From Cristatella mucedo (taxonomy: Eukaryota; Bryozoa; Phylactolaemata; Cristatellidae): a stretch of DNA of 64,000 nucleotides. The stretch is taken from NCBI GenBank assembly GCA_009760855.2, contig WPIO01000001.1, positions 12,571,501 through 12,635,500 of the forward strand, in the 5' to 3' direction. This document shows positions 1,880-52,859 of the stretch, one piece after another. The translations under genes were made by a program, and so were the position numbers. How positions within the stretch are numbered: the stretch's first letter is position 1; every line of letters begins with the position of its first letter. The notes beneath the pieces were generated by a model. The model saw only the letters and a list, made by a program, of their open reading frames with translations, searched no databases and was not told where the DNA came from.

Positions 1880-4002
1880 ATGGAAGAAGGAAAAGAAGCG
1901 CCGGATTTCTCAGCCAGTCTCCTCGCCCTGGATCCAACTGGCAAGGAAGAAGCACTCAAAGAGTTCTGCGAGGAGGTATTCATTGCTGCTGTAAATGGAC
2001 AGCTTGCAGCGCTGAATCGTCTCCTCAGCTCATGTACGCAAGAGTATCGAGACGCTGCTCTGCGTTTCTCCAAGAAGGCTGGCCTCGAGACACTTACTCC
2101 TCTTGTAGCAGCAGCTAAGATAGGTCGTCTAAAGATTGTTGAAGCTCTTGTAACAGACTTTAATGTTGATATTGATCAGCCAGCGTCAGTAATGATAGAC
2201 AAAACCATAAATGCCGATGCTACCGCTCTTTGGTGTGCGGCAGCATGGGGCCACTTCGACGTCGTCAAAGTGCTCGTAGCCGCTGGCGCCCGTGTTAATC
2301 ATGCGAGTGGTACAAGGTTTACGCCACTTAGGGCTGCTTGCTGCCTAGGCTACATGGATCTCATCCGTTACTTGATAAGTAATGGCGCCGACGTCAACTT
2401 GGTCGACGATCGTGGTTGCACGTGCCTCATGCTTGCATCCTTTCACGGCTTCGTTGACGTGGTTCGCTGTCTTGTTGAACACGGAGCGAATATAGATCCT
2501 AGTCATGATTGCGCTACATCTGCTTTGCATTTGGCAGCCGAGGAAGGAAAAATTGCCATAGTGACCTATCTAATCTCACGAAATGCTTCCGTGTCGAAGA
2601 ACGAGCATGGCCTGACCCCCATTATGGCAGCAGCAGCCAACGGCAGAGTGGACATAGTGGAATGGTTGGCTGCGAAACTGTCCTGTGGTCCCAAGGATCG
2701 CGTAGAAGCATACGAGCTTATTGCTGCTTCGCTCGCCAATTCCGGTAAGAATGTAAACTTGTCATTAAGCTTCAATTACATGCATGCCGCAATGCTAGAG
2801 CGTAACCTATGTGGGCTAACGAAAAGTCCCGTGGAGACCCTGGAGGATTACGACTTTCTGAAGGAGTGCTGCTCGCTCGCCGAACTCGTGGCAATCAAGG
2901 CTGACGACGCCAGACTTGGGCTGGAAGCCCTGCTAATGCAGGAGAGAATTCTAGGCCTCCAGCACCCAGCAGTGGCTTACCACTTGGAATATCGAGCTGC
3001 TCGGCTTGCAGAAGCCGGAGAGTGCAGCCGTGGCCTTAGACTTTTATTGCGTGCCGCCCGGGCAAAGTTGAGTTATGAGTGCTGTATTGCTTATGAACTG
3101 TTGCGAATCACCAAATCTTTTGGTTCCATGTTCGAGGCAGGGGAGCCAATACCTTGCACTCTACTGAAGAGGGCAATGGAGCTGCTGTGTCTAGACATTG
3201 GTGCTGTTCGTGTACAGAATGACGACATAGCTAAACTGGTGAGAATCTTGCAGTTTCTTTTTGTTTGCGCCGCCATGCATCCGATCATCAGGCTGAAGCA
3301 GCTTGCGGCACCTGCTGTCGTCGTTGTAACTGGCCTGATTTCGATTTTGATTCCCTTTCGATGCCATCGCTTTGCGCTCGTCGGTCAGGTCTGACACTTT
3401 TTGGTCGTATTCACTGCCATTCGCATTTGTAGGCTGTGGAAATCGACATGGAGTCGATGCTGAGTTTGGTTGCATTTGCTACCCAATCTCAGCTCTCCGA
3501 AGTGGAAAGCTTTGACCTCCGCCGTGTCACATATCGTTTCTGCAAGATGGATGTTCGACTGCCCATCGGTTTTAGTCTCCTGCACATGGCCGTGAGCCTC
3601 TGGACGGGTGCTGATTTAGACATGGGCGATGAGTTCAACTTTCCCAGCAGTGATGTTGCAGGCTGGCTGCTCGATTGCGGGCACAGCATCGACTGCCGCG
3701 ATCGTAATGGCAACACTCCACTTCACATTGCCGTCCAGCTCGGCCATCGGATGAACGATTTCACAAAGCTGCACGACATAATCATGCTTATCTCCAAGTA
3801 CGGCGGCCATCTAGACTGCACAAATGTGCGTGGCAAAACGGCCCTGCAGTGCTGTGCCACCAGGGTGGCCAAGGATATCCTCAGGCTGCAAATTAAACCG
3901 CGACTGATGTGCTTAGCGGCTAGGGCTGTCAAACGAACCGGCTCAGGCACCTACGAGGGCGTGCTGCCGAAAGACCTTCTGGACTTCGTGAACCTGCACT
4001 GA
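1880..4002 (+). CDS. FEM1: FEM1 homologue, copy A (CUL2 E3 ligase substrate receptor)
   Basis: There are two exons, 1880-3238 and 3433-4002, with a 194-bp phase-0 GT..AG intron. Together they encode 642 residues, close to animal FEM1 proteins (about 617-627). Residues 30-267 hold about seven ankyrin repeats with FEM1-like motifs (TALWCAAAWGHFDVV at 115-129, CTCLMLASFHG at 180-190). A helical TPR-like middle contains LLMQERILGLQHP at 351-363. Exon 2 carries the C-terminal ankyrins (FSLLHMAV at 500-507, NTPLHIAV near 547-554) and a VHL/BC-box-like LMCLAARAV at 611-619, followed by LPKDLLDFVNLH at the end. In animals FEM1 recruits substrates, often through C-terminal degrons, to CUL2-RBX1 via elongin B/C. 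That role is inferred here from family membership. By eye, copy B differs at about three coding positions, one changing an amino acid (Glu/Asp near the C-terminus). Confidence 0.9.
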
Positions 4003-4429
4003 CAGTTGTGGGATTAAGTTACGGTGGCCACTGCCACCACTCCGTGCTAGCCTGTGACCTAAGCTGTCGTATCATTGCTTTCGTGTGGTGCTGCAGTCTC
4101 CCCTCTGGTCTTTAACCACCGAGCCGATTTCGCCTCGGCTGCTTGCGAGCACTCAACGGTGCTCCTGTTTTTTAATTTGTTGCTTTTGGCACTCACCTCT
4201 CGGGCTTGAAGAGCCGCGGGGGGGGGGGGCAGGTGGCAGGCACTGTGCGGTGGCATGTAGCAATAGATGGGCTGTCGTGTGCATGTCCGTAAGCTGACTC
4301 GTCGAGCCACTGACTGACATGAGAGACAGTTCTGCCGTGCTTCTTTTGAACACAACCGTGACATTGCATCTGAAGCGTCCGGCGTGCTGCATTCCGTTAT
4401 CGTGGCTGGGCACGGTGCAAATACCAACG

Positions 4430-4435
4430 AATAAA
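4430..4435 (+). terminator. Poly(A) signal of FEM1 copy A
   Basis: An AATAAA lies 428 bp past the stop codon and is kept at the same place after copies B and C. In the flank of copy D the sequence is changed and the signal is lost, which fits that copy being dead. Confidence 0.55.
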
Positions 4436-10003: not shown

Positions 10004-10416
10004 TGTAGTTCGCATGTATGTATCGTATGCAGGCTCCTCTGATAAGCTACTGATGAGCTGTTAGAAGCACCACCGAGAGGGGCCGGTGCACAGCTGGATT
10101 CCGCCTGTGATGTGGTATGGACAGAGGCCAGTAACCAGCTCGTGGCCAGATGGTGGATTCACCATCAGGGTCGGCCAGTGCACTGCTGTTATCCGCCTTT
10201 GATGTGGCATGGACCAGCTGGTGGCCAGATGGTGGATTCACCATCAGGGTTGGCCGGTGCACAGTTGTGGTCGATGAGTCATCGGAGTCGACCAGGGGAG
10301 GGAAGTCGTGTGAGAGCAGGGGCCGAGGGGAGCCGTGCACTCTTCGGCTCCGTGCGTTAGTAATAAACTGTCGGTGTTGGGAATAGGCTGTCTCTCTGCT
10401 GTGCGAACAAACTACA
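10004..10416 (+). repeat. 5' LTR of element A (413 bp)
   Basis: It begins TGTAGTTCGC and ends AAACTACA. It contains a 92-bp and a 79-bp repeat unit (10081-10251) and an AATAAA at 10372-10377 near its end. The segment after AATAAA resembles the end of the family-C LTR (GGTGTTG, TCTGTG, ACTACA), pointing to common origin. The short frames in this region are LTR translations. Confidence 0.92.
10081..10251 (+). repeat. LTR minisatellite, 5' copy (units of 92 and 79 bp)
   Basis: Tandem units begin GGCCGGTG/GGCCAGTG and end GATTCACCATCAGGGT. There are two units plus the start of a third. The 3' LTR has one more 79-bp unit. Confidence 0.9.
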
Positions 10417-10437
10417 AGCTATTTCTCGGCGGGAGCG
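10417..10437 (+). other. Post-LTR segment, candidate primer-binding site
   Basis: The sequence directly after the LTR reads AGCTATTTCTCGGCGGG and has no TGG, the usual complement of tRNA CCA ends. The same segment follows the 5' LTRs of family B (15862), family C (57054, AGCTACTTCGGCAG) and the minus element at 46704 (AGCTATTTCCGGCGG). AGCTATTTCGGC is the exact complement of the first 12 nt of animal tRNA-Phe (GCCGAAAUAGCU). Use as a primer site is inference. Confidence 0.4.
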
Positions 10438-10457
10438 ACCGTGTGGTCCGTATAACG

Positions 10458-11189
10458 ATGAGTCTGAAAGTACAACTAATGGAAGGAAAAATTTCGCAAT
10501 TCGACGGCAGCGGAGACTTCGCTGAATGGCTAAATCGGTTCGAAAGATTGGCCAAGATGCAGGGGGTTGATGAATTGCAAAATTTCCTGCCGCTATTCCT
10601 TACACGTGTGGCATACGCCGTATACGATGGCGTCCCCGAGGCGGCTAAGGAAGACTACGCCACGGTAAGAAAAGCGCTGCTGGCAGCATTCTCGCCGAAT
10701 CGCTTCAATGCCTAGGAGGAATTCGCCTCGCGTCGCCTTGCTGAAGGTGAAAATGTGGATGGCTTTTAGGCGGACTTGAATCGGTTGGCTAGGCTGGTGG
10801 CCGGTGATTTTGTCAAATGCGCCTTTGTTGCTGGGCTGCCGGAGGCCGCAAAGAGGCACCTCCAAGCCTCATGCAACCTCGCGGAAATGCCTGCGGATGT
10901 TCTTGTCGAGAAGGCTCGGGTCGTAGTGAAGGCAAGCGTCAGCATTCCGAAGGCGGCAGAAAGTTGCTTCGCATCCGGTTCTCGTTCGGGATGGCCTCCC
11001 CAGGCACCGAATAACAGAGATGTTGTGTGTTTCCTATGCAAGGCGATCGGGCACGTACGCCGTGATTGTCCTTCTAAAGCGGCGCACCGCTGTCGCGGGA
11101 GGCACTGTTACGTCTGTGGGAGCATTCAACTTCTCGCTGCTAACTGCTCGGATCGGGCGGTCGTACCAAACTGGCAAAAAAACGAGTAG
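10458..11189 (+). pseudogene. gag: gag of element A (two in-frame TAG codons)
   Basis: The ATG at 10458 opens a gag-like protein starting MSLKVQLMEGKISQFDGSG. The frame stays aligned with gag of families B and C to the TAG at 11187-11189, a length of 243 codons. Stops at 10713-10715 and 10767-10769 interrupt it; sister copies read Tyr and Trp there. A CCHC knuckle (CFLCKAIGHVRRDC) is followed by a second, CYVCGSIQLLAANC, with Leu in place of His. Gag forms the particle and packages RNA. The reading frame ends just after a frameshift heptamer. Confidence 0.8.
11177..11183 (+). promoter_or_regulatory. -1 frameshift heptamer A-AAA-AAC at gag/pol border
   Basis: In gag frame the codons read CAA AAA AAC GAG TAG, a canonical X-XXY-YYZ slippery site 3 nt before the stop codon. 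Slipping back one base enters the protease frame, which is open from here. The related relics keep an equivalent run (A-AAA-AAA at about 16614 and 30200, A-AAA-AAG near 49060). Confidence 0.7.
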
Positions 11190-11756
11190 GGGAGAGCACG
11201 CATTACTGCGCCGGTGCTTTCCCCTCCATTATGGCGCGCCTTCCTTCGGTACGTGTCCTCATCGAAAACTCCGAGGCGTCTGCGCTCGTGGATACTGGGT
11301 GCTCGAGGTCCATCATTTCGGCGACGCTTGCGGACCCTGCGAGGGTGAGGCGAGCGTGCGAGGAAGTCGTAATGATGAATGGAGCCACGGCTGTCTGCAA
11401 GTCCACGTGCGTCGCTACGGTAGCCCTCTGCGGACGAACCATAGTGCTTGACTGCCTTGTGTCAAATGTTCTTCCTGGTTTCGGGTTACTACTCGGTATG
11501 GATGCCATTGAACTCCTAGGCGGCGTGATTATCGGTCCTTCCGCTGGTCATGTTGAGTTCATGTGCCAAAGGAGAGTTCCAGAGCCAGCACACCGTTCCG
11601 AGGCAGCAGTAGTGGCGTCTCCTAGTGTCAAACGTGCTGTAGCATCGTCGGCCGCTGACGTACTGATTGAGGACAAGGACTTTAAGGCAGTTTTCCATCG
11701 GGGGCGCTGGTCAGTCAAGTGGGAGTGGACGAATCGTTGTGTCGTCCCCCAATTGC
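11184..11756 (+). pseudogene. pol: Protease part of pol, element A
   Basis: Read in the -1 frame after gag, this contains the retropepsin motif ALVDTGCSRSII with the catalytic Asp codon at 11291. Beyond it lies a linker ending near VKWEW. Its frame is lost at about 11756, where one base is missing compared with family-B copies (TTGCG against TTGACG), so the natural protease-RT fusion is broken. The frame running on to 11875 is out of register. Confidence 0.8.
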
Positions 11757-14058
11757 GAACCATGTCGCTTCATATCATGTGGGAGAGGAAATTCGTGCCG
11801 ACTACGAAAATGAGGTGGAAGAGTGGATCAAGGAAGGCTGGTTGCAGCCGTTCGCTGGTCATTGTGGTGGCCTGATCCCTCTAATGGCCGTCGTACAGGC
11901 AAGTGAAGGCAAAGTGAGGCCCGTGATGGACTACCGAGAACTTAATCAGTTTATATCGAGTCACACGGCTGGTGGCGATGTGTGTAGCACCAAGCTCAGA
12001 GCGTGGCGACGGCTGGGCGAGAGCGTGAGCATAATTGACCTGAGAAAAGCATACTTGCAGGTGCATGTTGATCCCGCTCTCTGGCAATATCAGGTCGTGG
12101 AGTACAAAGGCCGTCGGTACTGCCTCACACGACTAGGTTTCGGACTTAATGTCGCCCCGAAAATAATGACCGCGATTCTGACAAAGGTCTTGTCCATGGA
12201 TGAGCGAGTTCGTGCTGGTACCGATTCGTTTGTCGACGATATTGTTGTCAATAACAGCGTTGTCTCGAATGGTGATGTAATCGACTTGCTACGAACATTT
12301 GGTTTGGAGGCTAAGCCGCCAGAAAGCCTCGCTTGCGGAAGGGTCCCTGGCCTTCGAGTATGCAGGCCAAACGAAGGTGAGGAGCTTCGTTGGCGCCGCG
12401 ATAACGTGGTGAGCGCATTGCCTAACGCCCCATTGCGACGCCAGCTGTTTTCGTGGTGCGGGCAGCTGATCGGGCATTTCCCAATCGCAGGCTGGCTTCG
12501 CCCGGCCTGCAGTTACCTAAAGCGAGCTGCTGGCGATGTCGGTTGGGACTCAGTCGTTGGTGAAAATGTCATAGCCATGGCGGGTGAGTTGATGCAGCGA
12601 TTGCATGCCAACGATCTAGTTTCAGGCATTTGGAATGTGCCGAATCTGGATAATGGCATCCTCTGGTGTGATGCCAGCAGCCTTGCTATCGGCACATGCC
12701 TGGATATAGGAGGAAGAATGGTCGAGGATGCCTCCTGGCTGCGAAAAGCGGACGACGTAGCCCACATCAATCTTGCGGAGCTGGAGGCTATCATCAAGGG
12801 CCTCAATCTGGCCATTGCTTGGTCATTACGGCAGGTGGAGATTCGGACAGATTCAGCAGCTGTTCACGGATGGCTACAGTCACTGCTGGTTGGAGATAAG
12901 CCTGTACGAGCCCACGGCATGGGAGAGGCGCTTATCAAACGCAGGCTAGCACTGATAGCCGACACGGTGTCAGAGTGTGGACTGAAGGCTTCCGTAGTCC
13001 TAGTGCGATCATCCAACAATAAAGCCAACCAGCTGACCCGCGTCTCTCAGAAATAGACGAGGGCGAATGTAAGCTGTCTCGCTGTTCCAGAGCAGGCGTC
13101 TTCGCCGGCGGTCGGCGTCGACCTAAAGAGTTTCCACAGCCTTCACCACTTTGGAGTTGACAGGACACTGTACCTTGCCAGAATGTGCCACCCGAAAGTT
13201 ACTATCCGGCGGAAGGACGTCGAAGCCGTCGTGAAGGCTTGCCCTCGTTGCAAGTCAATCGATCCTGCACCAGTCGCATGGAGTGCAGGCGTGCTGGATG
13301 TAAGCGAGAATTGGCAGCGCCTGGCCTGCGACGTAACGCATTTCAAGGGCCAAAAATATCTGACCGTGGTAGATTGTGGACCAAGCCGTTTCGCTATTTG
13401 GAGGCAAATACCCGAAGAGGGAGAAAACACATTGGTGCAAAATCTGGGAGAATTTTTTAGGGAGCGTGGCCCTCCGCAGCAGCTGCTCATAGACAACGGT
13501 GCGAGCTTTCGCTCAACAGCTCTTCGCAGTCTTTGCGACCGCTGGGCCGTGGAGCCCATATACCGTTGCGCCTATAAACCCTCCGGCAACGGCATCGTTG
13601 AGCGAAACCACAGGACCATCAAGGGAATGGCGGCTCGCACGGGCAAGAACGTCCTGATGATGGTGCATTGGTACAACATCTCGCCAACAGCCGGGTTGCA
13701 CGAGGAATCAGTGCCCTGCAGAAGGCTATTCTCCTATGAGTGGAAAAGCCCCCTCTTCAGAGCACAGACAGATCAGAGCCCGAGGACTACTCAATATGCT
13801 GTCGGCCAGCGAGTCTTTGTGAAGCCTGCCGGCGCTCGTTGTACGACCGAGTGGCCCGAGGGCACGGTAACAAGTGAGGGGCAGGGCGTGGGAATCGAGA
13901 TCGACGGTGTGCGTCGCCACGTGTCCGACTTGCGCCTCGTACCAGGGCAGCAAGAGGCGCCCCCTGCACCTGAAGGGGACAGAGCTGAACCAGTACAGCG
14001 GCCCAGGCGCGCTGTGACACTTCCCCGCCGGTACGACGATTATGTCCTGACCGGATAG
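11757..14058 (+). pseudogene. pol: RT-RNase H-integrase part of pol, element A (one TAG)
   Basis: One frame runs the whole way, broken only by TAG at 13054-13056, where relics have TGG. RT shows RPVMDYRELN, DLRKAYLQVH, LTRLGFGLNVAPK and an FVDD catalytic box at 12229-12240 in place of the usual YxDD. RNase H starts near WCDASS (about 12668). Integrase has an HHCC-like region (ACPRCKS) and the triad Asp 13330, Asp 13492, Glu 13600, with DD35E spacing. The ATG at 11719 is not a true start. The integrase style (SRFAIWR, GNGIVERNHR) is one I associate with a metazoan LTR lineage seen in worms and ticks; a close match to named clades cannot be shown here. Confidence 0.85.
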
Positions 14059-14110
14059 ACTTGCTCATTGCTGCTCTGTACCTTGCAGCTACATGTGTTG
14101 GTGCTGCAAA

Positions 14111-14211
14111 CTTGTGACCTTAAGGTCAAGGGTGCGTATAGTTCGTATGTACGTTTGTATGTATGTATTGTATGCCGGCTCCTGACTTGTGACCGTAAGG
14201 TCAAGGGAGCG
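14111..14211 (+). repeat. Partial duplication of polypurine tract and LTR start
   Basis: Just before the 3' LTR there is a diverged copy of the element's own border: ACTTGTGACCTTAAGGTCAAGGG, then a sequence matching the first roughly 50 bases of the LTR (ATAGTTCGTATGTACG to CCGGCTCCT), then the true polypurine tract and LTR. This looks like an older slippage or mis-integration product carried by the element. Confidence 0.7.
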
Positions 14212-14704
14212 TGTAGTTCGCATGTATGTATCGTATGCAGGCTCCTCTGATAAGCTACTGGTGAGCTGTTAGAAGCGCCACCGAGAGGGGCCGGTGCACA
14301 GCTGGGGTCCGCCTGTGATGTGGTATGGACAGAGGCCAGTAACCAGCTCGTGGCCAGATGGTGGATTCACCATCAGGGTCGGCCAGTGCACTGCTGTTAT
14401 CCGCCTTTGATGTGGCATGGACCAGCTGGTGGCCAGATGGTGGATTCACCATCAGGATCGGCCAGTGCACTGCTGTGATCCGCCTTTGATGTGGCATGGA
14501 CCAGCTGGTGGCCAGATGGTGGATTCACCATCAGGGTTTGGCCGGTGCACAGTTGTGGTCGATGAGTCATCGGAGTCGACCAGCGGAGGGAAGTCGTGTG
14601 AGAGCAGGGGCCGAGGGGAGCCGTGCGCTCCTCGGCTCCGTGCGTTAGTAATAAACTATCGGTGTTGGGAATAGGCTGTCTCTCTGCTGTGCGAACAAAC
14701 TACA
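14212..14704 (+). repeat. 3' LTR of element A (493 bp)
   Basis: It has the same ends as the 5' LTR but is 80 bp longer: one additional 79-bp unit (three units in 14289-14539) and one extra T. A purine-rich AAGGTCAAGGGAGCG, the likely polypurine tract, precedes it. The right target duplication TATCC follows at 14705-14709. Confidence 0.92.
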
Positions 14705-36103: not shown

Positions 36104-36111
36104 TAGCTACG

Positions 36112-36306
36112 TCATTGGAGCTTTAACTCGTGCTCTATGCAGTATTCCAAAAGCTTCGCACACCGCTTGGCTTTAGCGTGTGCTCGATGTGTATCTGAAC
36201 GTTTCGTCCTAATACGGCTGTATCCCATACAGCCGAACAAGGAGTCTTGTTGCCGCTTCTTATTCGTAGTGGCCAGCCTTGCTATATACAGCACGAGTAT
36301 TTGCAT
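36112..36306 (-). CDS. Small antisense ORF, copy in unit 3
   Basis: A frame of 64 residues, two shorter at the start than in units 1 and 2 and with several amino acid changes. The inverted repeat inside it (36215-36235) is perfect here, CGGCTGTAT-CCC-ATACAGCCG. Confidence 0.15.
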   Translation of the reverse strand: MQILVLYIARLATTNKKRQQDSLFGCMGYSRIRTKRSDTHRAHAKAKRCAKLLEYCIEHELKLQ

Positions 36307-38010: not shown

Positions 38011-40926
38011 CCTTTTACGCTTGCACCAATCGAATTTAAAAGTAAACCGAAATTTTTGAAAGGAATATTTGCAACGGACAAGATACCAATGGTCGTTTGG
38101 TGTGTGGAGGCCCACCCTCACAGCTCACTCTCAGGCTTCGACACTTACTGAGCAGCTACGTTGAGGGCTCGAGAAGACTTGAAAAAATTTTTATGGCTTG
38201 CTTAGTTAGCAGGCTCATCCGAGCTGCGATAATAGGACCTGAGCTGCTATCTTTTCTCTTGCAGTGAGTGATAAAGGATGGATTTTTGCACGACTTGAAC
38301 CTACAAATTCCTTTGTTGCAGTACTCGAACCTACGTACTAGATAGCGAAGTGCAAGAATGCCCCTTGGCTAAGACCTTGGAGCTCGCTAGGCATGTGAAT
38401 GCAAAACTTAGTATTTTCAGCTGACTAATTGTTTGAGCTCCTACAAAAGCTGAAGCTAAGTTAATAAGAAGTAAGCTTTCAGAATGGAAAATATGTCTTT
38501 TCGTTACTTGCCTGCTGAAAAGCGTAATTTTGTATAGGTACATTTCGCTGGGTGTCAGCTGCTATGTGGCTGTGGTTCCACCGGTAAGAAACGGGCCCGG
38601 GAGCAGGACGAACCTTGTCGTTGCTTGGCGAGACCTCTGTTTATTTAACTCCATTGTATGCTCATAACTCATCTTACGCTCAACGTAACTCAAAGTAAAT
38701 ATCGCGTTCTGGATACTGGCGGGGGAGGATTTACTTGCCGTATTACAATCTATCAAGCGGCATAGCACCAGCACTTTGAAAAATCGTTTGACATAGCTTG
38801 TTTTTCTTAGCGGTGTACTATCATCGGTGACTTCAGTTTGAAGGTGTTCCTGAAACCAAACAAGTCCAATTGCAAGTTCAATGGGTGGAGACAGCCCTCA
38901 GCATTCCCTGCCTGTGCTAATCTGAGTTTCTAATTTAACAATGGGACATCTGAAATGTTAGCTTGAGGTAATGAGCTGTTTAAAAGCTAATGTCCGCACC
39001 ATGGTCTTTTATCATCCGAATGCATCCGGAGTTTGAAGCCTAATCCCATCAGCAACCGATAAAGATGGTCAAGCGCAAATAATTAAATGATGCTTCATAA
39101 GCAGGAATGTCACACATATCACTCTGAAAGTTAAAAATTAATAAATATAAATTCATATAAAACCTTATAAAAACCGATTCTCTTTTGAGCGACTTTACTA
39201 AAGCCAGACAGGAATCGTGTTAATTGGTCATCTAAACTTGAAAACCTTCAAAATACAACGTAAGGACGATTAAATCTGATTGAGAAAAGGCGGTCAGAAT
39301 CTTGTAGTGTTTTTGCTTCTTTTTTACTATTTCCTTATTAGCAGAAGTCATTAGTTTCAGCCTTCGGAACCATAAGAATTGTAGGCTTGGCCCCGAGTTA
39401 TTTGAAGTTCCTTGGGGGCACAGCCAAACGACCAGATTCAGAAGAGCAGGTGGTGCCACGGGAGGTCTGAAAGTATTTCGGATAGGCCTATTTGAGCAAA
39501 ACATGGTATGAGTTTAAGGTTTTTCTGACGATTACATCGGCAAGTTAGAGGGCGTAGGAGTTATTTAATGAAATGGACTGACAACCGATAATTAAACACA
39601 CCCTACTTTTCCTTCTCAACAAATGAAGGCTGCCTGTTGACATCAACTCTTTGAAATATTGCATTAATATCGGATTAGAAACTCTGTATCACAGTGCCTG
39701 TGATATCCAGGGCGAGATGACAAGTGCTCACGAGTGACTTGATGATCTATAGGATTACAAACTGCAATTTAAGTGGATCGCTTGGTGTAGCTTTCGAGCG
39801 CAAGTGTCGGTGGTCGGATTAGAGGATTTGTGTAAATAAAATAGACCGTTCCGATAAGTTAAACCTCACCTGCCAGCGAACGCAGATAAACGTGGGTCGG
39901 CGTGTTTGAACAAATCTACAGCACGGTTACTTCTGATGCCTATCTTTCTGTGCAAAAGTAGATATAGCGTCGTTTGAGAAGTTTCGTTTGAGTTGTAGCA
40001 TCCGTCGGTAGTTATTGAAGTCCTCCGTTCCAGTCATAAAAACATTCACCACAATATCCCATTCCTCAGTTGTTGGGATTGATCTCTGTGGGCTTATTCT
40101 AGTAGATATATTTCAGGTAGTTGCTGGAAACAGGCTTTGTTCTTGCCACGTGCTAATCAGTCAAAAGTTTAACGAAGTATTTAAGATTTCTGATAAGCTG
40201 GCAACAATTGCGTCGAGCCGCCACCTACAACACAGCATTATGCCGTGGCTGACGAAGCTTTGAGGTTCGGCCCGAACTGTCCAACCCCTTGCGCTTGCTA
40301 TTCAGCTCGCCCGTTTGGCTGAACGTTGCTGTCAGTCAACGGTGGGCCGCCCCGGCGTACCCAGAACCTAAACAACGTATATAGGCCGGCCATTGTCCGA
40401 CGCTGAGACATACAGTCTTAGGAGCTACTGCTTGGCGCTCTGTTCACAATTAAAACTGACTACTTTCAAACGTTTCTTTCTCAACAGCATTTCGCCTTTA
40501 GAGCTCCACAAATTGCGTCTGCTAGCATTACTACTTTAGTCTTCACTGTTTCACGTTACTTTCTAGTCGGGCGCTTCATTAGCCGCGGCAACAGAAGCAA
40601 CGACCAACACTCGAGAAACCACGCCATGGATTCCGCTTTGGCAAGCGTGCAAAAGTACCTAAATACGACATCTAGATAAGCATGTCTTGCGCGCGCCTCT
40701 GAAATTGAAATTAGAGCTAACTCCTTACCTTGGGTCACTGGTTAGGCAATTGACACCGCGAAGCGTCGTGCTACTAACACGGGATATTCCCCAAAGCACC
40801 TATTATCCTTGAATTTAGGGCATTTCACATAGTCTGCTATTACCCATGCTCTTATAAAAATAAATACATGAATAGAAATATATATGTATACATATATATA
40901 CAAGCACATATATGTATACATACATG

Positions 40927-40929
<3 letters not shown>
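38011..40929. other. Intergenic stretch of unit 3, no gene recognised
   Basis: Matches 6349-9258. Blocks near 38.0-39.2 kb and 39.65-39.95 kb are almost identical to units 1 and 2, while 39.25-39.6 and 39.97 kb onward are clearly more diverged. The frame at 40015-40263 corresponds to 8338-8595. Confidence 0.4.
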
Positions 40930-40966
<37 letters not shown>

Positions 40967-41032
40967 TAGATAGATAGATAGATATATGTGCGTGTGTGTG
41001 TGCGTGTGCGTGTGTGTGTATGTGTGTGTTTG
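40930..41032. repeat. (TA)n(GATA)n(TG)n microsatellite, unit 3
   Basis: Matches the tract at 9259-9510 but carries GATA units (about 40964-40985) and a short TG part. Confidence 0.95.
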
Positions 41033-42237
41033 TATAAATAAGAGAACAAACATTTAGTAGTTAGTACCATCCAAGTCAACGCTTGCGCCTTCCGCGAGGC
41101 TACCTAGATCTGCAGCCGTCGGCGCCCTGATAACATAACACTTCCAACGCTAAAACGGCCACGACGATGTTCACGGCCGCGGTTTTGTGGGACCAGGATA
41201 GATAGATATACGCACTCATAAATGGAAAGGTAAGCGAAGCAAACTTCAGAACAGACAAGTCTAGTGGGTCACTTTACAACAGCACGTCGCTCTTTCCTTA
41301 ACCGCGACGTCCTTAGTCTCGCCGTGTGAAACAGCTCAGAAAGAATATTCCCTCAGAAAGAGTAAATACCCTGGAGAACACGTGTTTTCAGCTTATTTTT
41401 AATTCCATCTAATCACAAAGCGACAGCCGGTAGGCGTTTCCTAGCATAGGGATCGCGGGTGGTCGGGATCCTTTCTGTGAGCCCTACCAGGCAGTAAATA
41501 CATTTAAATCTAGCGGCCATCCTTCAGCCTATATGCTGCAAGTCCGATAGTCGCTTCTGGCGTCTGCTACCGCGTGTACTGAATTTGAATATTTATACCC
41601 CTTGCTAAACCCGCTTCCCCTATGCAGCGTTTCCCGTATATTGTCTTTTATTCACGAGATGGTCCAGGGCGTCACGACGTGATCCGTGATATGTGCATAC
41701 TATTACTTTTTTGTCTGAAAGCAAAACATCGTGCATGTCATTCCCAAAAAAGGTTCTTAGCGTGGTGAGTTGTCATCTACGTGAATATTTCTTCCTATTA
41801 CCGAACGAGCATCCCTAAGAACATAGCTGCTAGGTAGAATCTATAAGAGAGATTTGCTGCGTTTAGTGATTTATTCCTGCTGACATGTTGCGGGTGCCTT
41901 TTCTTCTGGGCAGGTATAACTTTACACAACGAGCCGAATCATTGTTCGCAGCTAAACTCGAGAAGAATATGAACGAAGTAGATTTATTTGGATCGATATC
42001 GGTTCTGTTTTTACGGCTCGCCTCTCATCTCTTGTTTCGAGTCACCCATCGCACTCAGTTGCTTTCTGGGCAAGTCACAGCAACAGACAATGCAAATGAA
42101 CTGGCCTAAATGCTGTCCTCATCGGGCTTCAGCAACAAGAACAATGATATTAAGACATTTGCAGTGCTCTCCCGAAGAACTAAATGACCTAGTCACTTTA
42201 CACGAAGTCTAAGTATTGTCTAGTGAAGTGGGTACTT
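41033..42237. other. Unit 3 flank with the empty site of element A
   Basis: No gene seen. The uninterrupted site reads GCGGCCATCCTTCAGCC at about 41513-41529, which defines TATCC as the target duplication in unit 1. Confidence 0.6.
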
Positions 42238-42491
42238 TGTGGCCTGTGTTTCACTGTATCTATGATCCGATTACAGACCTTAGGCTCGCCGGCACAATGC
42301 CGGTGCAGGCAGACCGGTAATGCCCTAAACCACCCCACGGTCTAACAGCAGGTGGCTGTGGCGTAGGGACGGGCTGCTGCCTAGCTGAGGTCTGGCGGCC
42401 GTCGTCCATCTTCAGGCTTGCTTTGTCCTCCAGACGGCTCACAGTATGAATGTGGCTCGGATGGAGCTGGAGAAAGAGGAAAATCCAACCT

Positions 42492-42565
<74 letters not shown>

Positions 42566-42699
42566 CAGTTGGAAAGAAAACAGCTGAGTTTTTGGTAAGC
42601 GCAGCAGGCACGAACGAGAATACACGCTTCTGACAACCAGCTTCGGTGTTGTGCCTGCTTTCGCGCACGCACCTAGTTGGGAGAGCATTATTAACTACA
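42238..42699 (+). repeat. 5' LTR of relic B3 with expanded (GA)n
   Basis: 462 bp, the same LTR as B1 and B2, enlarged by a pure GA tract at about 42497-42558. Confidence 0.88.
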
Positions 42700-45600
42700 A
42701 ACTATTTCTTGGCGGGATCAGCTGTGTGGCCCGTGTGTCTGAAAGTAACACTAATGGTAGTACCAATTTCGCCATTCGACGGCAGCTGACTTTGCTGAAT
42801 GGCTGAATAGGTCTGAAAGATTGGCCAAGACACAAGGAGTTAATGAGTTGCAAAATATTCTGTCGCTATTCCTTAGATGTGGGGCATACTACGTATATTA
42901 AGGCGTCCCTGATGCGTCTAAGGAAGATTATGCCCCGGTAAGAAAAGCACTGCTGGCAGCATTCTCGTTGAATTACTTTGATCCCTATGATGAAATCGCC
43001 TCCAGTCGCCTCGCTGAAGGCAAACGTGCTTGTTTTTTGGTCGGACTTAAATCAATGAATGGGCTGGCTGAGCTGGTGGCTGACGATTTTTTCAGATGTG
43101 CCTTCGTCGCTGGGCTGCCCGAGGCCGGAAAGAGGTACATCCAAGCCTCGTGCAACCTCGCTGACATGCCGAGGCATATTCTCGTCGAGAAGGCTCGCGT
43201 CGTAGTGAAGGCGAGCGGCACTCCAAAGGCGGCAGATAGTGGTTTCGCATCCTGTTCTCGTTCGGGATGGCGTACCCAGGCTCCGAATCGCTGGGATGTT
43301 GGGTGTTTTCCGTGCAAGGCCTCTTTGTGCATTCGAGCCGTGATTGTCCTTCTGAAGCAGCACCGTATTCGCGGGAAGCACAGTTATGTCCGTATGACCA
43401 TTCAATATCTCGCTGCTGACTGCTCGGATCGGGCTGTCGTCCCAATTTGGCCAAAAAAATGATAGTGCTGTTCCTTTATAGTGCACCTTCCTTCAGTCGG
43501 TGCTTTCAACGAAAACTTCGAGTGGTCTTCGATTGGGAATTCTGGGTTCCCGAGGTCCATCATTTCGACTGTATTTGCTAACTCTATGAGGGTTAGAAAT
43601 CGGTACGAGGGGGTCGCGATGATGAATGAATCAATGGCTGTCTGCTAGTCCACGTGTGTTGTGATGGTGGCCCTTTTCGGACAAATGAAAGGTCTTGCCT
43701 GCCTCGTCTCAGATGTCATTCATGGTTTCGGGTTACTACTCGGTACGGATGCCATTTAATTTTTTCGGTGGCCTGGTTATCGGTCCCTCTTCTTGGCAAA
43801 TTGAGTTCTTGGGCCAACGAGGAATTCCAGAGCCACACCAGTGCCGTTCCGATGCCTCGGTGGTGGCGTCTGCTGGTGCCAAACAGGCTGTAGCATCATC
43901 GACCGCTGACATACTGGTTAAGGACACGGACCTCAACGGCAGTATTCCATCGGGGATGCTAGTCACTCGAGTGGTAGTAGACAAATCGCCGTGTCGTCCC
44001 CCATTTGACGAACCATATCGCTTTGTACCATGTGCAAGAGGAAATTCGTGCCGATCACGAAAAAACTGGGAGAGTCGATCAAGAAGACTGGCTGCAGTTA
44101 TTCGTTGGTCATTGTGATGGCCTGTTCCCTCTAACAGCCGTCGTACAGGCAAGCAAGTGCAAGGTGAGGCTCGTAACACACTATGGCGAACTAAATCGGT
44201 TTATTTTAAGTCACACGGCAGACGGCCTGTGTCTACCACTAAGCTCAAAGCGTAGCGACGGCTTGGCCTGAACGTGATCATAATTGTCCTGCGAAAAGCA
44301 TACTTGCAGATGCAGGTTAATGCTGCTACCTGACAATATCAGGTCGTGGAGTGCAAAGGCCGTCGCTATTGCCTCAGTCAACTAGGTTTCGTACTTGATG
44401 TCGCCCCGAAAAGAATGACCGCGACTCGGACAAAGGTCCTGTCCGTGAATGAGTATGTACATGTACTGATTTGTTTGCTGGTGAAATTGTCGTCAACAAC
44501 AGCGCCGTCTCAATTGCTGAGGCAATCGACTTGCTATGAACGGTTGGTTTGGAGGCGAAGCCGCCGGAAAGCATAGTGTGCGGAAGGGTTCTTGGCCAAT
44601 GGGTATGCAGGCCGTAGGAAGGTGAGGAGCTTCTTTAGCAATGATATAACGTAGTGAGCCTATTTCCTGGAGTCCTATTGCGAAGGCAGCGGTTTTCGTA
44701 GTGAGAGCAGCTGATCGGGCATTTCCAAGTCGTAGGCTGGCTTCCATCACCCTGCACTTACTAAAAAAGATCAGCTGGTGACGTCGGTTAGGGCTCAGTC
44801 GTTAGTTAAAATGTCTTAGCCAAGGCGATCGAATTGCCGCAACGATTTCGTGCCGACGATCCAGTTTCAGTCAGTTGGAATGTACCGAATCTGGATAGTG
44901 GCATCATCTGGCGTGACCCCAGTACCCTTGCTGTCGGCATATGCATGGATATATGAAGAAGAATCGTAGCTGATTCCTACTGGCTGCTAAAAGCTGACGA
45001 CATAGCTCACATCAACCTTGCTGACCTGGAGGCCGTCACCAAAAGCCTAAATTCTGGCTATTGCTTGGTCATTGTGGCAGCTAGAAAATCGGACTGACTC
45101 AGCAACTGTTCATGAATGGCTACAATTACTGCTCGTTGGAGATAATTCTGTACAAGCCAATGGTATAGGAAAGGCGCCTAAAAAATCAGTCTAGCATTGA
45201 TCGCCGACACGGTGTCAGAGTGTTGACTGAAGGATCGGTAGTCCTGGTGCAATCGTTCAACAATAAACCAGTTGACGCTAGTTTCTCAGAAATGGATGAG
45301 GGTGAATGTAAGATCTCTTGCGCTTCCAGAGTATGCATCTTTAAAGTCGGTCGGCGTAGACTTTAAGATTTTCGACAGCTTTCGCCTCTTTGGGGTAGAC
45401 AGGACACTTTACTTCGCCAGAATGTGCCACCCGGAAGGTTTTACCTGGCGAAAGGACATCAATGCCCTCGTGAAGGCTTGCCCTCGTTTCAAGTCGGTCG
45501 ATCCTGCACCAGTCGCATGGTGTCCACCCGTGCTGAAGATGAGTGAGAACTGGTAGCGCCTGGCCGGAGATGTAACACATTTTAAGGGCCAAAAATATTT

Positions 45601-46287
45601 GACCGTGGTAGATTGTGGGCCGAGTGGTTTGGCTATTTGGAGGCGAATACCTGACCTTGAAGAAAAATATTTGGTTCAAAATCTTGGCGAACTTCTTAGG
45701 GTGTGTCGCCCTCGACTGAAGTTGCTCATAGATAACGGCTCAAGTTTTCATCAACAGCTTTTTTCGCTCTTTCCGATCGTTGGGCCGGGAAGCCCATCTA
45801 CCGTTTCGCCTATAAATTCTCCGGCAAAGGCATCGATGAGCGAAATCAGGCGACCATCAGGGAAATTACAGCTCGCACTGGTAAGGACGTTCTGATGATG
45901 CATCAATACAACATCTCGCCAACGGCAGGTTTGCACCAAAAATTGATGCCCAGCGTAAGGTGTTCTCCGATGAGTGGAAAAGCCCCCTCCTCAGGGCATA
46001 GACGAATCTGGGCCTGAGGGTGGCTAATTAGGTGGTCGGCCTGCGATTTTTTATGAAGCCCCCGCCCACGGCACTCGTTCCACGACAGAGTCTCCTGAGG
46101 GCACGGTGACCAACGATTGCCAGGGCGTTTGAATCGAGACCGAAGGTTTGCGTCGCCATATCTACGACCTGCGTCTCATACCAGGGCAGGAAGAGGCGCC
46201 CCCTCCATCTGAAGGCGACAGAAATGAACCAGGGCAGCTTTCCGGGCATGCTGTGACTCTTCCTAACCGTCTCCATGACAATGTTTT
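42238..46287 (+). mobile_element. Family-B relic B3, 3' LTR missing
   Basis: Parts are: 5' LTR 42238-42699; gag relic 42700-43462 (open 42968-43462); then pol relic with RT (about 44040-44800), RNase H (about 44870-45290) and integrase (about 45370-46287). The integrase tail (GQEEAPPPSEGD) is readable, and the element stops right after it at a junction with FEM1 sequence. The 3' LTR and FEM1 upstream region were deleted here. Confidence 0.85.
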
Positions 46288-46310
46288 GACAATGGAAGAA
46301 GGAAAAGAAG
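46288..46310 (+). pseudogene. 23-bp vestige of a FEM1 start
   Basis: This short stretch equals positions 1877-1895 plus flank of copy A (GACAATGGAAGAAGG onward), covering the start codon and first codons MEEGKE. It is fused directly to the integrase end of B3 and followed by unrelated sequence. It looks like the left edge of a FEM1 unit otherwise lost. Confidence 0.6.
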
Positions 46311-46949
46311 TGTCCACACAGTGGCAGCCTGGTAAACCGTTGTTGCCCGGCACACCGTCAGCGATTGCTGATATTGCTTGTGGTCCTTTTGTCGCCGCCT
46401 TCTCTCCGACAAGCATTTGCTAGCTCAGCGCTCAGCAGTCGGGCGTTACCTACAGGGCTAGCCAGCGCTGTTACCAGAGCCTCGCGAAGCAGACGGTAGT
46501 CATCCTTGATTCCCTTTGGCATGTAAGAATACACATAGAAGGTGTTTCCTTCCCGGAAGAGAGGCAGTTGTTTGTGCCAGATAGTCGGATTGACACCGTA
46601 CAGCTCGAGCCGCAGCTCTGAGTCAAGCAGCCAAGTTGCGAAGTCGTCACCGACTTGAAAATGCTCAAGCAACATTGCTGTCACCGCCGCCGCCGGAAAT
46701 AGCTTGTATTCTGAATTATCGCCGTGAACGGCACCGAACACCAGCCGACGAGAAACTCCACCAGTTTATTCGCCCTACACATGGAGCAGAGTGAAGCACG
46801 ACTCTCCTCGCCCCTCTCGCCCACCGGAGTCCCCAGAGTCCATTGTCAAAACAAATACTAATAGCACGTCCGGGCTGCTTACCACATCGGGTGTCATAGC
46901 CCACTCGCACAGCGATTAGGGGCAGTGTCATCAATTAAATAAAACCACA
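46311..46949 (-). mobile_element. Minus-strand fragment of a family-C-like LTR element
   Basis: Read on the minus strand: a 245-bp LTR (46949-46705), the post-LTR motif AGCTATTTCCGGCGG, then a gag start (open 46741-46358, true start probably at about 46678). Nothing of pol remains. The LTR has the same length and clear similarity to those at 56809 and 60553, but the gag differs strongly from that of element C. Confidence 0.75.
46705..46949 (-). repeat. Family-C-like LTR, minus strand (245 bp)
   Basis: In its own direction it begins TGTGGTTTTATTTAATTG and ends ATTCAGAATACA. It contains an AATAAA before the terminal GGTG..TCGGCT block, as in element C. The frame at 46716-46934 is an LTR translation. 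Confidence 0.85.
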
Positions 46950-47175
<226 letters not shown>

Positions 47176-47740
47176 CTTCTGCGGGCCCTACCTTGCAGTA
47201 ATTAAATCAAAGTTTTGCGGCTATCCTTCTGCCTATGCGCTGTACGTCCGACAGTCACCTTTTGCGTCTGCTACCGCGTGTAATGAATTTGAATATTTAC
47301 CTTCCCTGCTTAATATGCTCCTGCTTAAGACAGCCATTCTTGAATACCGTCTTTTTTGTTCACGTCTGGCTTTCTTGCTTACTTGAGCTCTATTCAGTGC
47401 ATTTAGCTGACCAAAATGTCTTCAAACTGACAGTCCTGGGCGTCACGACGTGATGAGGGATGTGTGCGTGCTTTTTTTGCTTGTCTAAAAGCAAGACACC
47501 ATGTATGTCATTCATATGACAGGTGCTTAGTGTGGTGAGAAGTTCTCTACTTTAATGTTTCTTTCTATCACCGAAGCAGCATCCCTAAGAACATAGCTGC
47601 TATCCAGATTCTTTAGGAAAGATTAGCTGCGTTCGGTGATTTATTCCTGCTGTCTTGTTTCGATTCACCGATCGCACTCAGTTGCTTTCTGGGCAAGTTA
47701 CAGCAGCAGACAATGCAATTGAACATGCTTAGCTGTTCGC
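47176..47740. other. Unit flank resumed after deletion
   Basis: This matches the flank around the element-A target site (as at 28270-28860), including GCGGCTATCCTTCTGCC, but lacks the FEM1 gene and intergenic stretch that should precede it. Confidence 0.6.
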
Positions 47741-48056
47741 ATGATTGGAGTACAGACCCTAGGCTTGCCGGCACACTGCCGCTGCAGGCAGACCGGTAAT
47801 GCCCTGAACTACTTCATGGTCCAACAGCTGGTGGCTGGGACGTAGGGACGGGCCCGTGCCCAATTGTGGTCTGGCGGCTGTCGTTTATCTCCAGGCCGGC
47901 TCTGTCCTCCAGACAGCTCACAGGATGAGTTGTTGCTCGGACGGAGTTGGGGACAGAAGCGAATCCATCCTGAGAGAGAGAGAGTGACAGAGAGGGACAA
48001 AGAGAGAGAGTGCGAGAGTGAGACGAAGAGAGAGACAAAGAGAGAGAGATAGAGAA

Positions 48057-48089
<33 letters not shown>

Positions 48090-50513
48090 AAGAGAGAGAG
48101 GGCGATAGAGAGAGAGACAAAGAGAGAGATCGAGAAAAAGAGAGATAAAGAGAGAGAGAGAGACAAAAAGAGAACAGCTGCGTTTCGGCAGACCGCAGCT
48201 GGAACAAGCGAGAATACATGCTCCTGACAACAAACACCGGTGTTCTGCCTGCTTCCGCCTACATACTTAGTTGGGAGAACATTATCAACTACAAACTTTT
48301 TCTGGGCGGGATCAGCTGTGTGGCCCGTGTAAAGATGAGTGTGAAAGTAAAACTGATGGAAGTACCAATCTCTAAATTCAAACGCAGCTGACTTCGCTGA
48401 ATGTCTGAATCAGTTTAAAAGATTTGCCAAGACACAAGCAGTCAGTGAATTGCAAAATTTTCTCCCACTATTCCTTTAACGTGGGGAGTACGCCGTATAT
48501 GAAGGCGTCCCTGACGAGGCTAAGAAAGACTATGCCACGGTAAGAAAAACGTTGCTGGCAGCATTCTAGTTGAATTGCTTCGATGCATACGAAGAATTTG
48601 CCTCGAGTCGCCTTGCAGAAGGCGAAAACGGGGATGTTCTTTGGTCGGACTTGAATTGGTGAATTAGCTGGCTTGACTGGTGGCTGACAATTTCGTCAAA
48701 TTCGCCTCTGTCGCTGGGCTACTGGAGGCCGCCAAGGGGCACCTCCAAGCCTCATGCAACCTCCCTGATATGCCGATGAAAATTTTTGTCGACAACCCTC
48801 GCGTCATAGTGAAGGCGAGCGGCACACCGAATGCGGCAGATAGTGGATTCGCATCTGTTTCTCGTTCAGGATGGCGTACCCAGGCGCCCACTTGCAGGGA
48901 TGTTGTGTGTTTCCTGTACAAGGCCATCAGGCACTTGAGCCGTGATTGTCCTTCTGACGCAGGGCTTAATGGTCACGGGAAGCTCAATTGAATCTGTAGG
49001 AGCAATTACAATCTCACTGCTAACTGCTCGGATCGGGCCTATGTACCAAAATGGCCAAAAAAGAATAGGCATAGCATGCATTACTTCCCCGGTGCTTTCC
49101 CCTCCTTTACAGCACGCCTTCCCTCGGTAGGTGTTCTCAACGAAAACTTCGGGGTGTCTTCGATGGTGAATACTGGGTGCTCGAGGTCCATCATTTCGTC
49201 GGCTTTTGCTAACCCGGTGAGGGTAAGGCAAGGGTGCGAGGACGTTGTAATATTGAAGGAAGTCACCACTGTCTGCAAGTCCAAGTGCGTCGCGACGGTA
49301 GCCCTTTTCGGGCGAACTATAGTGCTTCACTGATTTGTATCAGATGTCGTTCCTGGTTTCGGGTTACTGCTCGGTATGGATGCCATTTAATTTCTAGGTA
49401 GCGTGGTTATCGGTTTCTCTTCTTGTCAAGTTGATTTCTTTGGCCAAAAAAGAATTCCAGAGCCACACCAATGCCGTTCCGATGCATCGGTGGTGGCGTC
49501 TGCTGGTGCCAAACGGGCTGTAGCATCTTCGACCGATGACGTACTGATTGAGGACACGGACCTCAACGGCAGTATTCCATCGGGGACGCTAGTCAGTCAA
49601 GTGGTAGTAGACACATCGTCGTGTGGTTCCCCAATTGACGAACCATATCGCTTAGTACCTTTTCAAAGAGGAAAGTCGGTTACGAAAAAAACTGGGAAAG
49701 TTTATCAAGAAAGCTGGCTGCAGCTTTTTCTTGGTCATTGTGATGGCCTGATCCCTCTAACAGTCGTCGTACAGGCAAGCAAGTGCAAGGTGAGGCTCGT
49801 AATACACTACGGCGAACTAAATCGGTTTATTTTAAGTCACACGGCAGACGGTCTGTGTCTACCACTAAGCTCAAAGCGTAGCGACGGCTTGGCCAGAACG
49901 TGAGCATAATTTACCTTCGAAAAGCATACTTGCAGATGCATGTTAATCCTGCTCTCAGAATATATCAGGTCATGGAGTACAAGGCCGTTCGTACTAGCTT
50001 AGTCGACTAGGTTTCGCACGTAATGACGCACCGAAAAAAATGAGGGCGACTCGCACAAAGGTCCTTTCCGTGAATGAGTACGTAGTGGTACTAAGTCGTT
50101 TGTTAATGATATTGTCGTTAAGAACAGCTTCGTCTCAAATGCTGATATAATCGACTTGCTATGAACGGTCAGTTTGGAGGCGAAGCCTCCGGAAAGCCTA
50201 GTTGGCCGAAGGATTCGAAGATCCGCTGGCCACGTCGGTTAGGACCCAGTCTTTAGTTAAAATTTCTTAGCCGTGGCGATCGAATTGCCACTGCGATTTC
50301 GTGCCGACGATCCTATTTCAGTCAGTTGGAATGTACCGAATCTGGATAGTGGCATCATCTGGCGTGACGCCAGTACCGTGGCCGTCGGAACATGCTAGGA
50401 TATATGAAGAAGAATCGAAGCTAATACCTACTGGCTGCTAAAAGCTGACGACACAGTTCACATGAACCTTGCAGACCGGGGGACCGTCGCCAAAAGCCTG
50501 GATCTGGCTACTG
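47741..50513 (+). mobile_element. Family-B relic B4, 3' truncated
   Basis: Parts are: 5' LTR about 47741-48293 with a long GA-rich tract (47970-48175); gag relic 48294-49065; protease with NTGCSRSII (about 49165); RT to about 50215, where it jumps to RNase H; it ends in RNase H at 50513. The gag and protease are less damaged than in B1-B3, so this copy does not simply share their history. Its end is fused to the FEM1 upstream region (GAGTCCATTGCG), with integrase and 3' LTR lost. Confidence 0.8.
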
Positions 50514-50695
50514 TGAGTCCATTGCGAACGTTTGGTATTGTTCGTTCTGGAACCGTCTCCACGAGCTTTCAGTCGTTCTTCGCTCGCAGCCGAACCACCT
50601 TCATCGCTCACTTGCTGACGGTATAAGAACTTTCGTTATCCCATAACATCATTATCAGCAGAAGTTTTGAGCATAGCCGTATTGCTAGCGGGACA

Positions 50696-52859
50696 ATGGA
50701 AGAAGGAAAAGAAGCGCCGGATTTCTCAGCCAGTCTCCTCGCCCTGGATCCTACTGGCAAGGAAGAAGCACTCAAAGAGTTCTGCGAGGAGGTATTCATT
50801 GCTGCTGTAAATGGACAGCTTGCAGCGCTGAATCGTCTCCTCAGCTCCTGTACGCAAGAGTATCGAGACGCTGCTCTGCGTTTCTCCAAGAAGGCTGGCC
50901 TCGAGACACTTACTCCTCTTGTAGCAGCAGCTAAGATAGGTCGTCTAAAGATTGTCGAAGCTCTTGTAACAGACTTTAATGTTGATATTGATCAACCAGC
51001 CTCACTAATGATAGACAAAACCATAAATGCCGATGCTACCGCTCTTTGGTGTGCGGCAGCATGGGGCCACTTCGACGTCGTCAAAGTGCTCGTAGCCGCT
51101 GGCGCCCGTGTTAATCATGCGAGTGGTACAAGGTTTACGCCACTTAGGGCTGCTTGCCGCCTAGGCTACATGGATCTCATCCGTTACTTGATAAGTAATG
51201 GCGCCGACGTCAACTCAGTCGACGATCGTGGTTGCACGTGCCTCATGCTTGCATCCTTTCTCGGCAACGTTGACGTGGTTCGCTGTCTTGTTGAACACGG
51301 AGCGAATATAGATCCTAGTCATGATTGCGCTACATCTGCTTTGCATTTGGCAGCCGAGAAAGGAAAAATTGATATAGTGACCTATCTAATCTCACGAAAT
51401 GCTTCTGTGTCGACGGCCAACCCCCATTATGGCAGCAGCAGCCAACGGCAGAGTGGACATAGTGGAATGGTTGGCTGCGAAACTGTCTTGTGGTCCCAAG
51501 GATCGTTTAGAAGCAGACGAGCTTATTGCTGCTTCGCTCGCCAATTCCGGTAAGAATGTAAACTTGTCGAGGTCAGCCTTGGGCTGGAAGCCCTGCTAAT
51601 GCAGGAGCGAATTCTAGGTCTCCAGCACCCAGCAGTGGCTTACCATTTGAAATATCGAGCTGCTCGGCTTGCAGAAGCCGGAGACTGCAGCCGCGGCCTC
51701 AGACTTTTATTACGTGCCGCCCAGGCAAAGCTGAATAATGAGTTTTGTATTACTAACCAACTGTCACGAATCACCTAATCTTTTGGTTTTATGAGTGTTG
51801 TATTGCTTACTGTTGCGAATCACAAAATCATTTGGTTCCATGTTCGAGGCAGGGGAGCCAATACCTTGCACTCTACTGAAAAGGGCAATGGAGCTGCTGT
51901 GTCTAGACATTAGCCATGCTCGTGTATAGAATAGCGACGGAGCTAAAATGGTGAGAACTGTTGCGAATCACAAAATCGTTTGGTTCCATGTTCAAGGCAG
52001 GGGAGCCAATACCTTGCACTCTACTGAAAAGGGCAATGGAGCTGCTGTGTCTAGACATTAGCCATGCTCGTGTATAGAATAGCGACGGAGCTAAAATGGT
52101 GAGAATCTTGCATTTTTTTTGACGCGCCATGCATCCGATCATCGGGCTCCAGCAGCTTGCGGCACCTTCTGTCGTCGTCGTTGTAACAGGCCTGATTTCG
52201 ATTTTGATTTCCTTTCAATGCGATCGCTTTGCGCTCGTCGGTCTGGTCTGACACTTGTTGGTCGTTTTTACTGCACTTCGCATTTGTAGGCTGTGGAATT
52301 CAACATAGAGGCGATGCTGAACTTCGTGGCATTTGCCACGCAGTCTCTGCTCTCCGAAGTGGAAATCTTTGACCTTCACCGTGTCACCTATCGTTTCTGC
52401 AAGATGGACGTTCGACTGGGCAACGGCTTGAGTCTCCTGCACATAGCTGTGAGCCACTGGACGGGTGCTGATTTTGACACGGGCGATGAGTTCAACTTTC
52501 CCATCAGTGATGTTGCAGGCTGGCTTCTCGAATGCGGGCATAGTGCCGACTGCCGTGATAGTAATGGCGACAATCCGCTTCACTTTGCCGTCCAGCTCCA
52601 CAACCCAATGAACGATTTCACAAAGCTGCACGACATAATCATGCTTATCTTCAAGTACGGCGGGCATCTAGACTGCGCAAACGTGCACGGCAAAACGGCC
52701 CTGCAGTGTTGTGCAACCGGCATCGCCGAGGTTATCCTCAGGCGGCAAATTAAGCCGCGACTGATGTGCTTAGCGGCTAGGGCTGTCAAGCGAACCGGTT
52801 CTAGCACCTACGAGGGTGTGCTGCCGAAAGACCTTCTGGACTTCGTGAACCTGCACTGA
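50696..52859 (+). pseudogene. FEM1: FEM1 copy D, broken mosaic
   Basis: The start and first 240 codons (50696 to about 51415) are very close to copy A. An 11-base net loss at about 51418-51430 then shifts the frame. A deletion of roughly 170 bases at about 51569 removes the segment around LSFNYMHAAM. Further stops follow, and the end of exon 1 is present twice (51811-52106). Exon 2 (52290-52859) is fully open, with LMCLAARAV and LDFVNLH, but diverged from copy A about as much as copy C is. No full-length protein can be made. A short peptide from exon 1 remains possible. Confidence 0.85.
51811..52106 (+). repeat. 148-bp tandem duplication at exon 1 end of FEM1 copy D
   Basis: Two near-identical 148-bp copies (51811-51958 and 51959-52106) span the end of exon 1 and the splice donor (ATGGTGAGAA). 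The duplication therefore gives two candidate donors. A more decayed partial copy precedes them. Confidence 0.85.

Follow-up and report, generated by a model that had tools for sequence, protein, structure and literature searches.

Tandem duplication and decay of putative FEM1B-type CUL2 receptor genes in the bryozoan Cristatella mucedo

FEM1B is normally a conserved receptor; the F-box receptor families of Caenorhabditis use another cullin and adaptor and are far larger than the FEM1 array described here. According to PMC11053023, human FEM1B (PDB IDs: 8wqa and 8ij1) has defined degron pockets, and six residues of its VHL box (L597, L600, P617, L620, F623, and V624) contact Elongin C/CUL2. 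The Caenorhabditis F-box proteins (PMC8665587) resemble the array genes in being substrate receptors that undergo species-specific changes in copy number. The array lies in a 64,000-nucleotide stretch of Cristatella mucedo contig WPIO01000001.1, hereafter the window (G000:C111:12571501-12635500; whole assembly 572 Mb). It may constitute a birth-and-death family of CUL2 receptors of the FEM1B type with altered substrate preference, a reading drawn from sequence to which a probability of roughly 0.55 is assigned.

Self-comparison of the window reveals direct repeat units of ~13.2-13.6 kb, consistent with the ~13.3-kb units proposed in a first-pass annotation made from the DNA letters. A full unit consists of a 0.5-0.7 kb flank, an old degenerate long terminal repeat (LTR) element (R2), the FEM1 gene, and a 3' flank that is richer in AT and reaches up to 6 kb. 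Within the window, FEM1 is intact in three copies (A, B, and C), broken in frame in a fourth (E), and reduced to 23 bp in unit D; the same inventory had been proposed earlier, and open exons, splice sites, and string identity bear it out. The FEM1 starts are separated by 18355 bp (A-B), 13298 bp (B-C), and 17163 bp (C-E). The first distance comprises one unit and the LTR element R1 (4701 bp) that is inserted in unit A, while the last arises because unit D, its FEM1 deleted, sits between C and E. Including those outside the window, eight units or remnants are recognized: the gene is intact in three (A, B, and C), lacks an ATG at its usual position in one (X), is broken in one (E), and is lost or not showing in the remaining three (D, Z, and Y). 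The array is undergoing contraction alongside growth.

Copies A, B, and C each comprise two open exons with a GT-AG phase-0 intron of 194-228 bp between them. The exon junction follows codon 453 or, owing to a 12-bp in-frame deletion, codon 449 in C; the 453/454 phase-0 junction noted at first pass was recovered in copy A, and the whole assembly was searched with both exons. GT-AG splice sites are retained in all five copies (A, B, C, E, and X; introns of 191-228 bp). Damage to exon 1 of copy E includes deletions, one insertion or duplication, and stops. The 23-base vestige of unit D matches the start region of A, B, and E exactly; C has a difference within it. A TATA-like stretch occurs ~70-90 bp ahead of the start in A, B, E, and X, and is altered in C. 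An LTR-driven promoter was not adopted, as no evidence places the transcription start and the TATA-like stretch is altered in C.

Judged against human proteins in the PDB, both exons are closer to FEM1B (PDB ID: 8ij1; E = 7.8e-74 for exon 1 and 1e-33 for exon 2) than to FEM1C (2.5e-60 and 6.9e-20). The order of domains (N-terminal ankyrins, TPR-like part, C-terminal ankyrins, and VHL box) matches that of FEM1B along almost its full length. In the PDB lists of both exons, some ankyrins and designed ankyrin proteins outrank FEM1B by summed repeats; FEM1B is the top match when the N-terminal part or the TPR-like part is queried alone. Pfam families assigned to the array proteins are ankyrin families only. 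The match of both exons to human FEM1B excludes a chance origin of the array genes, and by similarity all array copies are classed as FEM1B-like.

Searches of the assembly with exon 1 (best 85 of 157 candidates), exon 2 (16 of 16), and a FEM1C-like TPR-region query (7 of 7) found one other FEM1 beyond the array and copy X: a FEM1C-like gene with hits to several exons at C549:319758-335221. Two parts of it match human FEM1C (PDB ID: 8pql) with E-values of 9e-88 and 1.9e-50, against 3.2e-58 and 4.6e-17 for FEM1B (PDB ID: 8wqa). This gene shares superfamily and domain order with the array genes, but it is single-copy, has several exons with introns at other places, and conserves the degron-pocket segment TPLRAACFDG, the stretch bearing the terminal-residue contacts. 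The array gene is without the introns of the FEM1C-like gene, yet it carries a single intron of its own; a retrogene origin is conceivable. Between exons of the FEM1C-like gene there is a CAG/CTG-type trinucleotide run of ~700 bp (L016 ~3200-3960). The other exon-1 matches are all at or below 56.6 bits; the only one inspected, at C343 (49% identity over 93 residues), was rejected as a hidden FEM1B, being generic ankyrin repeats to which the exon-2 and TPR queries gave no match. No conventional FEM1B was found in three protein searches of this one assembly; the array is therefore probably the FEM1B lineage of this animal.

The putative docking residues of the copies are conserved. Contacts were mapped via PDB alignments (residues 33-436 to 8-414, with a constant offset up to residue 308 and a shift of 3 thereafter; in the stretch 133-267 the FEM1B alignment was not printed, so the mapping rests on end points), those of exon 2 via the exon 2 alignment. 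The six VHL-box contacts named above are invariant in exon 2 of A, C, E, and X, through which the copies may bind Elongin C/CUL2.

The substrate pocket is much altered. Of the 16 substrate contacts named for human FEM1B in the available part of PMC11053023, A keeps two (W93 and R126), C two (W93 and H502), and X four (W93, S122, Y163, and F501); by these named contacts, the array genes do not fit a receptor of Arg/Pro C-degrons. Ten of the 16 contacts vary between A, C, and X, compared with 167 of the 610 sites aligned (27%; hypergeometric P = 0.003); with an earlier list of 12 sites (including D131, without W93, S122, Y153, I160, and H185), eight differ (P = 0.005). D131 is replaced by L in A and by I in both C and X. 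In the mapping used here it is the equivalent of FEM1C Asp126, which binds the terminal arginine (PMC10026218); that paper instead names FEM1B Arg126 as corresponding. Among the dimer-patch residues examined (F549, V584, I587, and L588), F549 is retained in A, C, E, and X, V584 is retained except for I in E, L588 is I in A, C, E, and X, and I587 is D in A, B, and C, and V in E and X. C186, which presumably has a role in FNIP1 binding, is retained in the copies. The array resembles human FEM1B in its identical domain order and kept Elongin C/CUL2 contacts, and differs from it in sequence (37 of 100 residues identical in the aligned N-terminal stretch), in the replacement of most named degron contacts, and in having tandem copies versus one gene. 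The earlier suggestion of new substrates gains indirect support: most canonical contact residues are missing and more variable than an average site, with the VHL box retained. A link to sex determination, the other idea raised at first pass, is a conjecture.

The copies have diverged to different degrees. The A and B proteins differ at one of 642 residues, and protein identity is 81.8% for A-C, 81.0% for A-X, and 78.4% for C-X. At the DNA level, A and C are 88-89% identical in the exons and 84% in the intron; across the gene, the divergence of C, E, and X from A is ~5-20%. The ratio of nonsynonymous to synonymous substitution rates (dN/dS) is 0.44-0.60 in the five copy pairs other than A-B (0.16 for A-B, from very few changes); in these five pairs it amounts to 0.34-0.49 for exon 2 and 0.62-0.91 for the ankyrin part. 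A, C, and X contain no internal stop, whereas neutral evolution simulated over the A-X distance produced 6.0 stops on average and left 0.2% of 2000 runs free of them; together with the dN/dS values, this indicates constraint during much of the divergence. The copies have diverged, were formerly constrained, and were found only in one chromosome region, which supports the tandem part of the lineage-specific expansion suggested at first pass; its lineage specificity is likely. Among the papers listed in literature searches, none reported such a FEM1 array, subscription journals being mostly outside the coverage.

The units also differ in how their segments have diverged. In 14705-17454, identity between B and C is 95-99%, and it reaches 97-99% in 10 of the 11 bins covering 23205-25954; through FEM1 it falls to 83-93%. 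E is 95-99% identical to B up to ~21100 (B coordinates), then 86-90% across the remaining FEM1. The simplest account of this mosaic pattern would be sequence exchange among the units or the introduction of older segments. The R2 LTRs are ~69-74% identical to each other and the element is common to the units, so R2 is older than the array; its target duplication could not be recognized. Insertion of R2 upstream of FEM1 probably preceded the multiplication of the units, which then carried the element along, and the repeats of R2 may have aided unequal exchange and deletion. A local FEM1B-type CUL2 receptor family would have grown and degenerated through tandem duplication, deletion, and exchange that left the units mosaic. 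The intact copies are presumably transcribed and spliced and would engage Elongin B/C-CUL2 through the VHL box; they might recruit substrates distinct from the Arg/Pro C-terminal degrons that human FEM1B binds, with a specificity that could differ between A/B, C, and possibly X.

Table 1. Coordinates of the FEM1 copies, repeat units, and associated LTR elements (window coordinates unless preceded by C111)
Feature	Position	Strand	Remark
FEM1 copy A exon 1	1880..3238	+	453 codons; N-terminal ankyrin arm and TPR-like part
FEM1 copy A intron	3239..3432	+	GT-AG, phase 0, 194 bp
FEM1 copy A exon 2	3433..4002	+	C-terminal ankyrins and VHL box, stop included
FEM1 copy B exon 1	20235..21593	+	
FEM1 copy B exon 2	21788..22357	+	
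FEM1 copy C exon 1	33533..34879	+	12-bp in-frame deletion, ankyrin region
FEM1 copy C exon 2	35108..35677	+	preceding intron 34880-35107
FEM1 copy E exon 1	50696..52098	+	frame-broken
FEM1 copy E exon 2	52290..52859	+	reading frame still open
FEM1 vestige, unit D	46288..46310	+	23 bp, start region, adjoins pol end
Unit B	14705..28310	+	~13.6 kb; nearest to unit A; self-comparison
Unit C	28309..41518	+	13.2 kb; self-comparison
Unit D	41519..47176	+	R2 element present, FEM1 deleted; self-comparison
Unit E	47177..54420	+	R2 without 3' end; broken FEM1; 3' flank shortened; self-comparison
R2 in unit A, 3' part	1..1557	+	pol end, then 3' LTR ~1189-1557; end placed by eye, by analogy with the unit B LTR alignment
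R2 in unit B	15425..19909	+	old LTR element; ends approximate; LTR pair ~70-74% identical
R1	10004..14704	+	young LTR retrotransposon, unit A only; 4701 bp; no FEM1 within
Copy X	C111:12359468-12361622	inverted	~212 kb upstream; both exons open; GTG replaces ATG start
Unit Z	~C111:12562128-12568002		upstream of window; R2 joined to 3' flank, FEM1 missing
Fragment Y	C111:12559317-12561290		upstream of window; match to 3' flank only

Several points weigh against a family with altered substrate preference. The loss of contacts and the dN/dS of up to 0.91 in the ankyrin part also fit relaxed constraint or ongoing pseudogenization, and dN/dS is below 1 throughout, hence positive selection is not demonstrated. 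The contact test compares three sequences, with low power, and assumes that the human FEM1B contacts apply. H185, F193, D356, V391, and Q394 show identical changes in A, C, and X, which makes part of the pocket change older than the copies, and dimerization may be affected by the D at the I587 site in A, B, and C. The main rival is ordinary tandem duplication under relaxed constraint, in which redundant copies drift to loss and the pocket changes without new function. FEM1 is broken or absent in E, D, and Z, X is without the ATG at its usual place, the ankyrin dN/dS is high, and the dimer-patch I587 is D in A and C, all as expected for drift; yet the diverged copies retain full-length open frames, splice sites, and invariant VHL-box residues, and the complete absence of stops departs from the neutral expectation. 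This rival is regarded as a serious but rather doubtful account of the locus.

It is also conceivable, though improbable, that the assembly set alternative haplotypes in tandem, which would make alleles of A and B. The two units are 98.3-98.7% identical across almost their entire length (two copies of a 10-kb stretch are 98.3% identical in the self-comparison), which is within reach of heterozygosity. However, the window contains no N bases, and C, E, and X are poor candidates for alleles at their distance from A; such a misplacement could merge A and B only, and C, E, and X would remain. That FEM1 spread with an LTR retrotransposon as its cargo is very improbable. R2, as a copy or a remnant, does lie upstream of FEM1 in all five units with a FEM1 gene, inverted X included, where the array's upstream LTR element is present too. 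Nevertheless, the FEM1 ATG of unit A lies ~320 bp beyond the R2 3' LTR, and FEM1, being outside the LTR pair, is a neighbor of R2 and not its cargo; on this ground the cargo candidate was rejected. R1, a related and complete element, has an LTR pair with 97.8% identity over 413 aligned bases and a 5-bp target duplication (TATCC on both sides), yet no FEM1. Moreover, FEM1 retains its intron, and in an assembly search with 2 kb of 3' flank, scored for the best 40 of 7667 candidates, the unit-specific part had matches solely in this region (at A, B, C, E, X, and Z).

Other repeats accompany these features. Inside the 3' flank lies a ~475-bp dispersed repeat (window 5817-6293, and the corresponding place in units B, C, Z, and Y) with at least 33 more matches beyond the array at 73-77% identity among the same best 40 of 7667 candidates. 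The pol frame of R1 (window 11686-13056) matches Pfam DUF7047 (PF23088) with 81.5 bits, more than RVT_1 (27.4 bits, below the cut-off); the DUF7047 match sits between the reverse transcriptase and RNase H matches. An inverted pol fragment of the R1/R2 family immediately follows unit E (window 54419-56318). A separate LTR element, R3 (window 56809-60797), has LTRs of ~245 bp (93.5% identical) and a pol distantly related to those of R1 and R2; an inverted copy resembling a solo LTR of R3 is located at 46696-46950. A long reading frame (window 61913-63478) encodes reverse transcriptase and RNase H domains of another type of LTR element. A scan of the window found no transfer RNA genes and no Rfam families at gathering scores. 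Elsewhere in the assembly, contig C688 (L026, L027) is a 21-kb mitochondrial contig with 44% GC over the 20 kb read. It carries one stretch in three copies, one of them inverted (near 2537-3365, 11632-12460, and 13747-14575, located from identical frames), and reads well with AGR = Ser. By recognition, its genes are presumably ND1-ND6-CYTB-ND4L-ND4-ND5 on one strand, with ND2 and COX2 opposite to the other recognized genes.

If the copies are merely decaying, the locus constitutes an ordinary case of tandem birth and death. A more far-reaching possibility, held tentatively and judged unlikely at present, is that a single conserved FEM1B was replaced by a small rearranging family in which the dock is fixed and the pocket varies by copy, redirecting CUL2 to new lineage-specific substrates (for instance in the differentiation of germline or sex, or in conflicts involving selfish or foreign proteins). 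Should the preferred reading of a receptor family with altered substrate preference hold, copies with a kept dock and a changed pocket would provide a natural set of variants for the evolution of degron specificity, and the array would test whether a conserved receptor can give way to a changing family.

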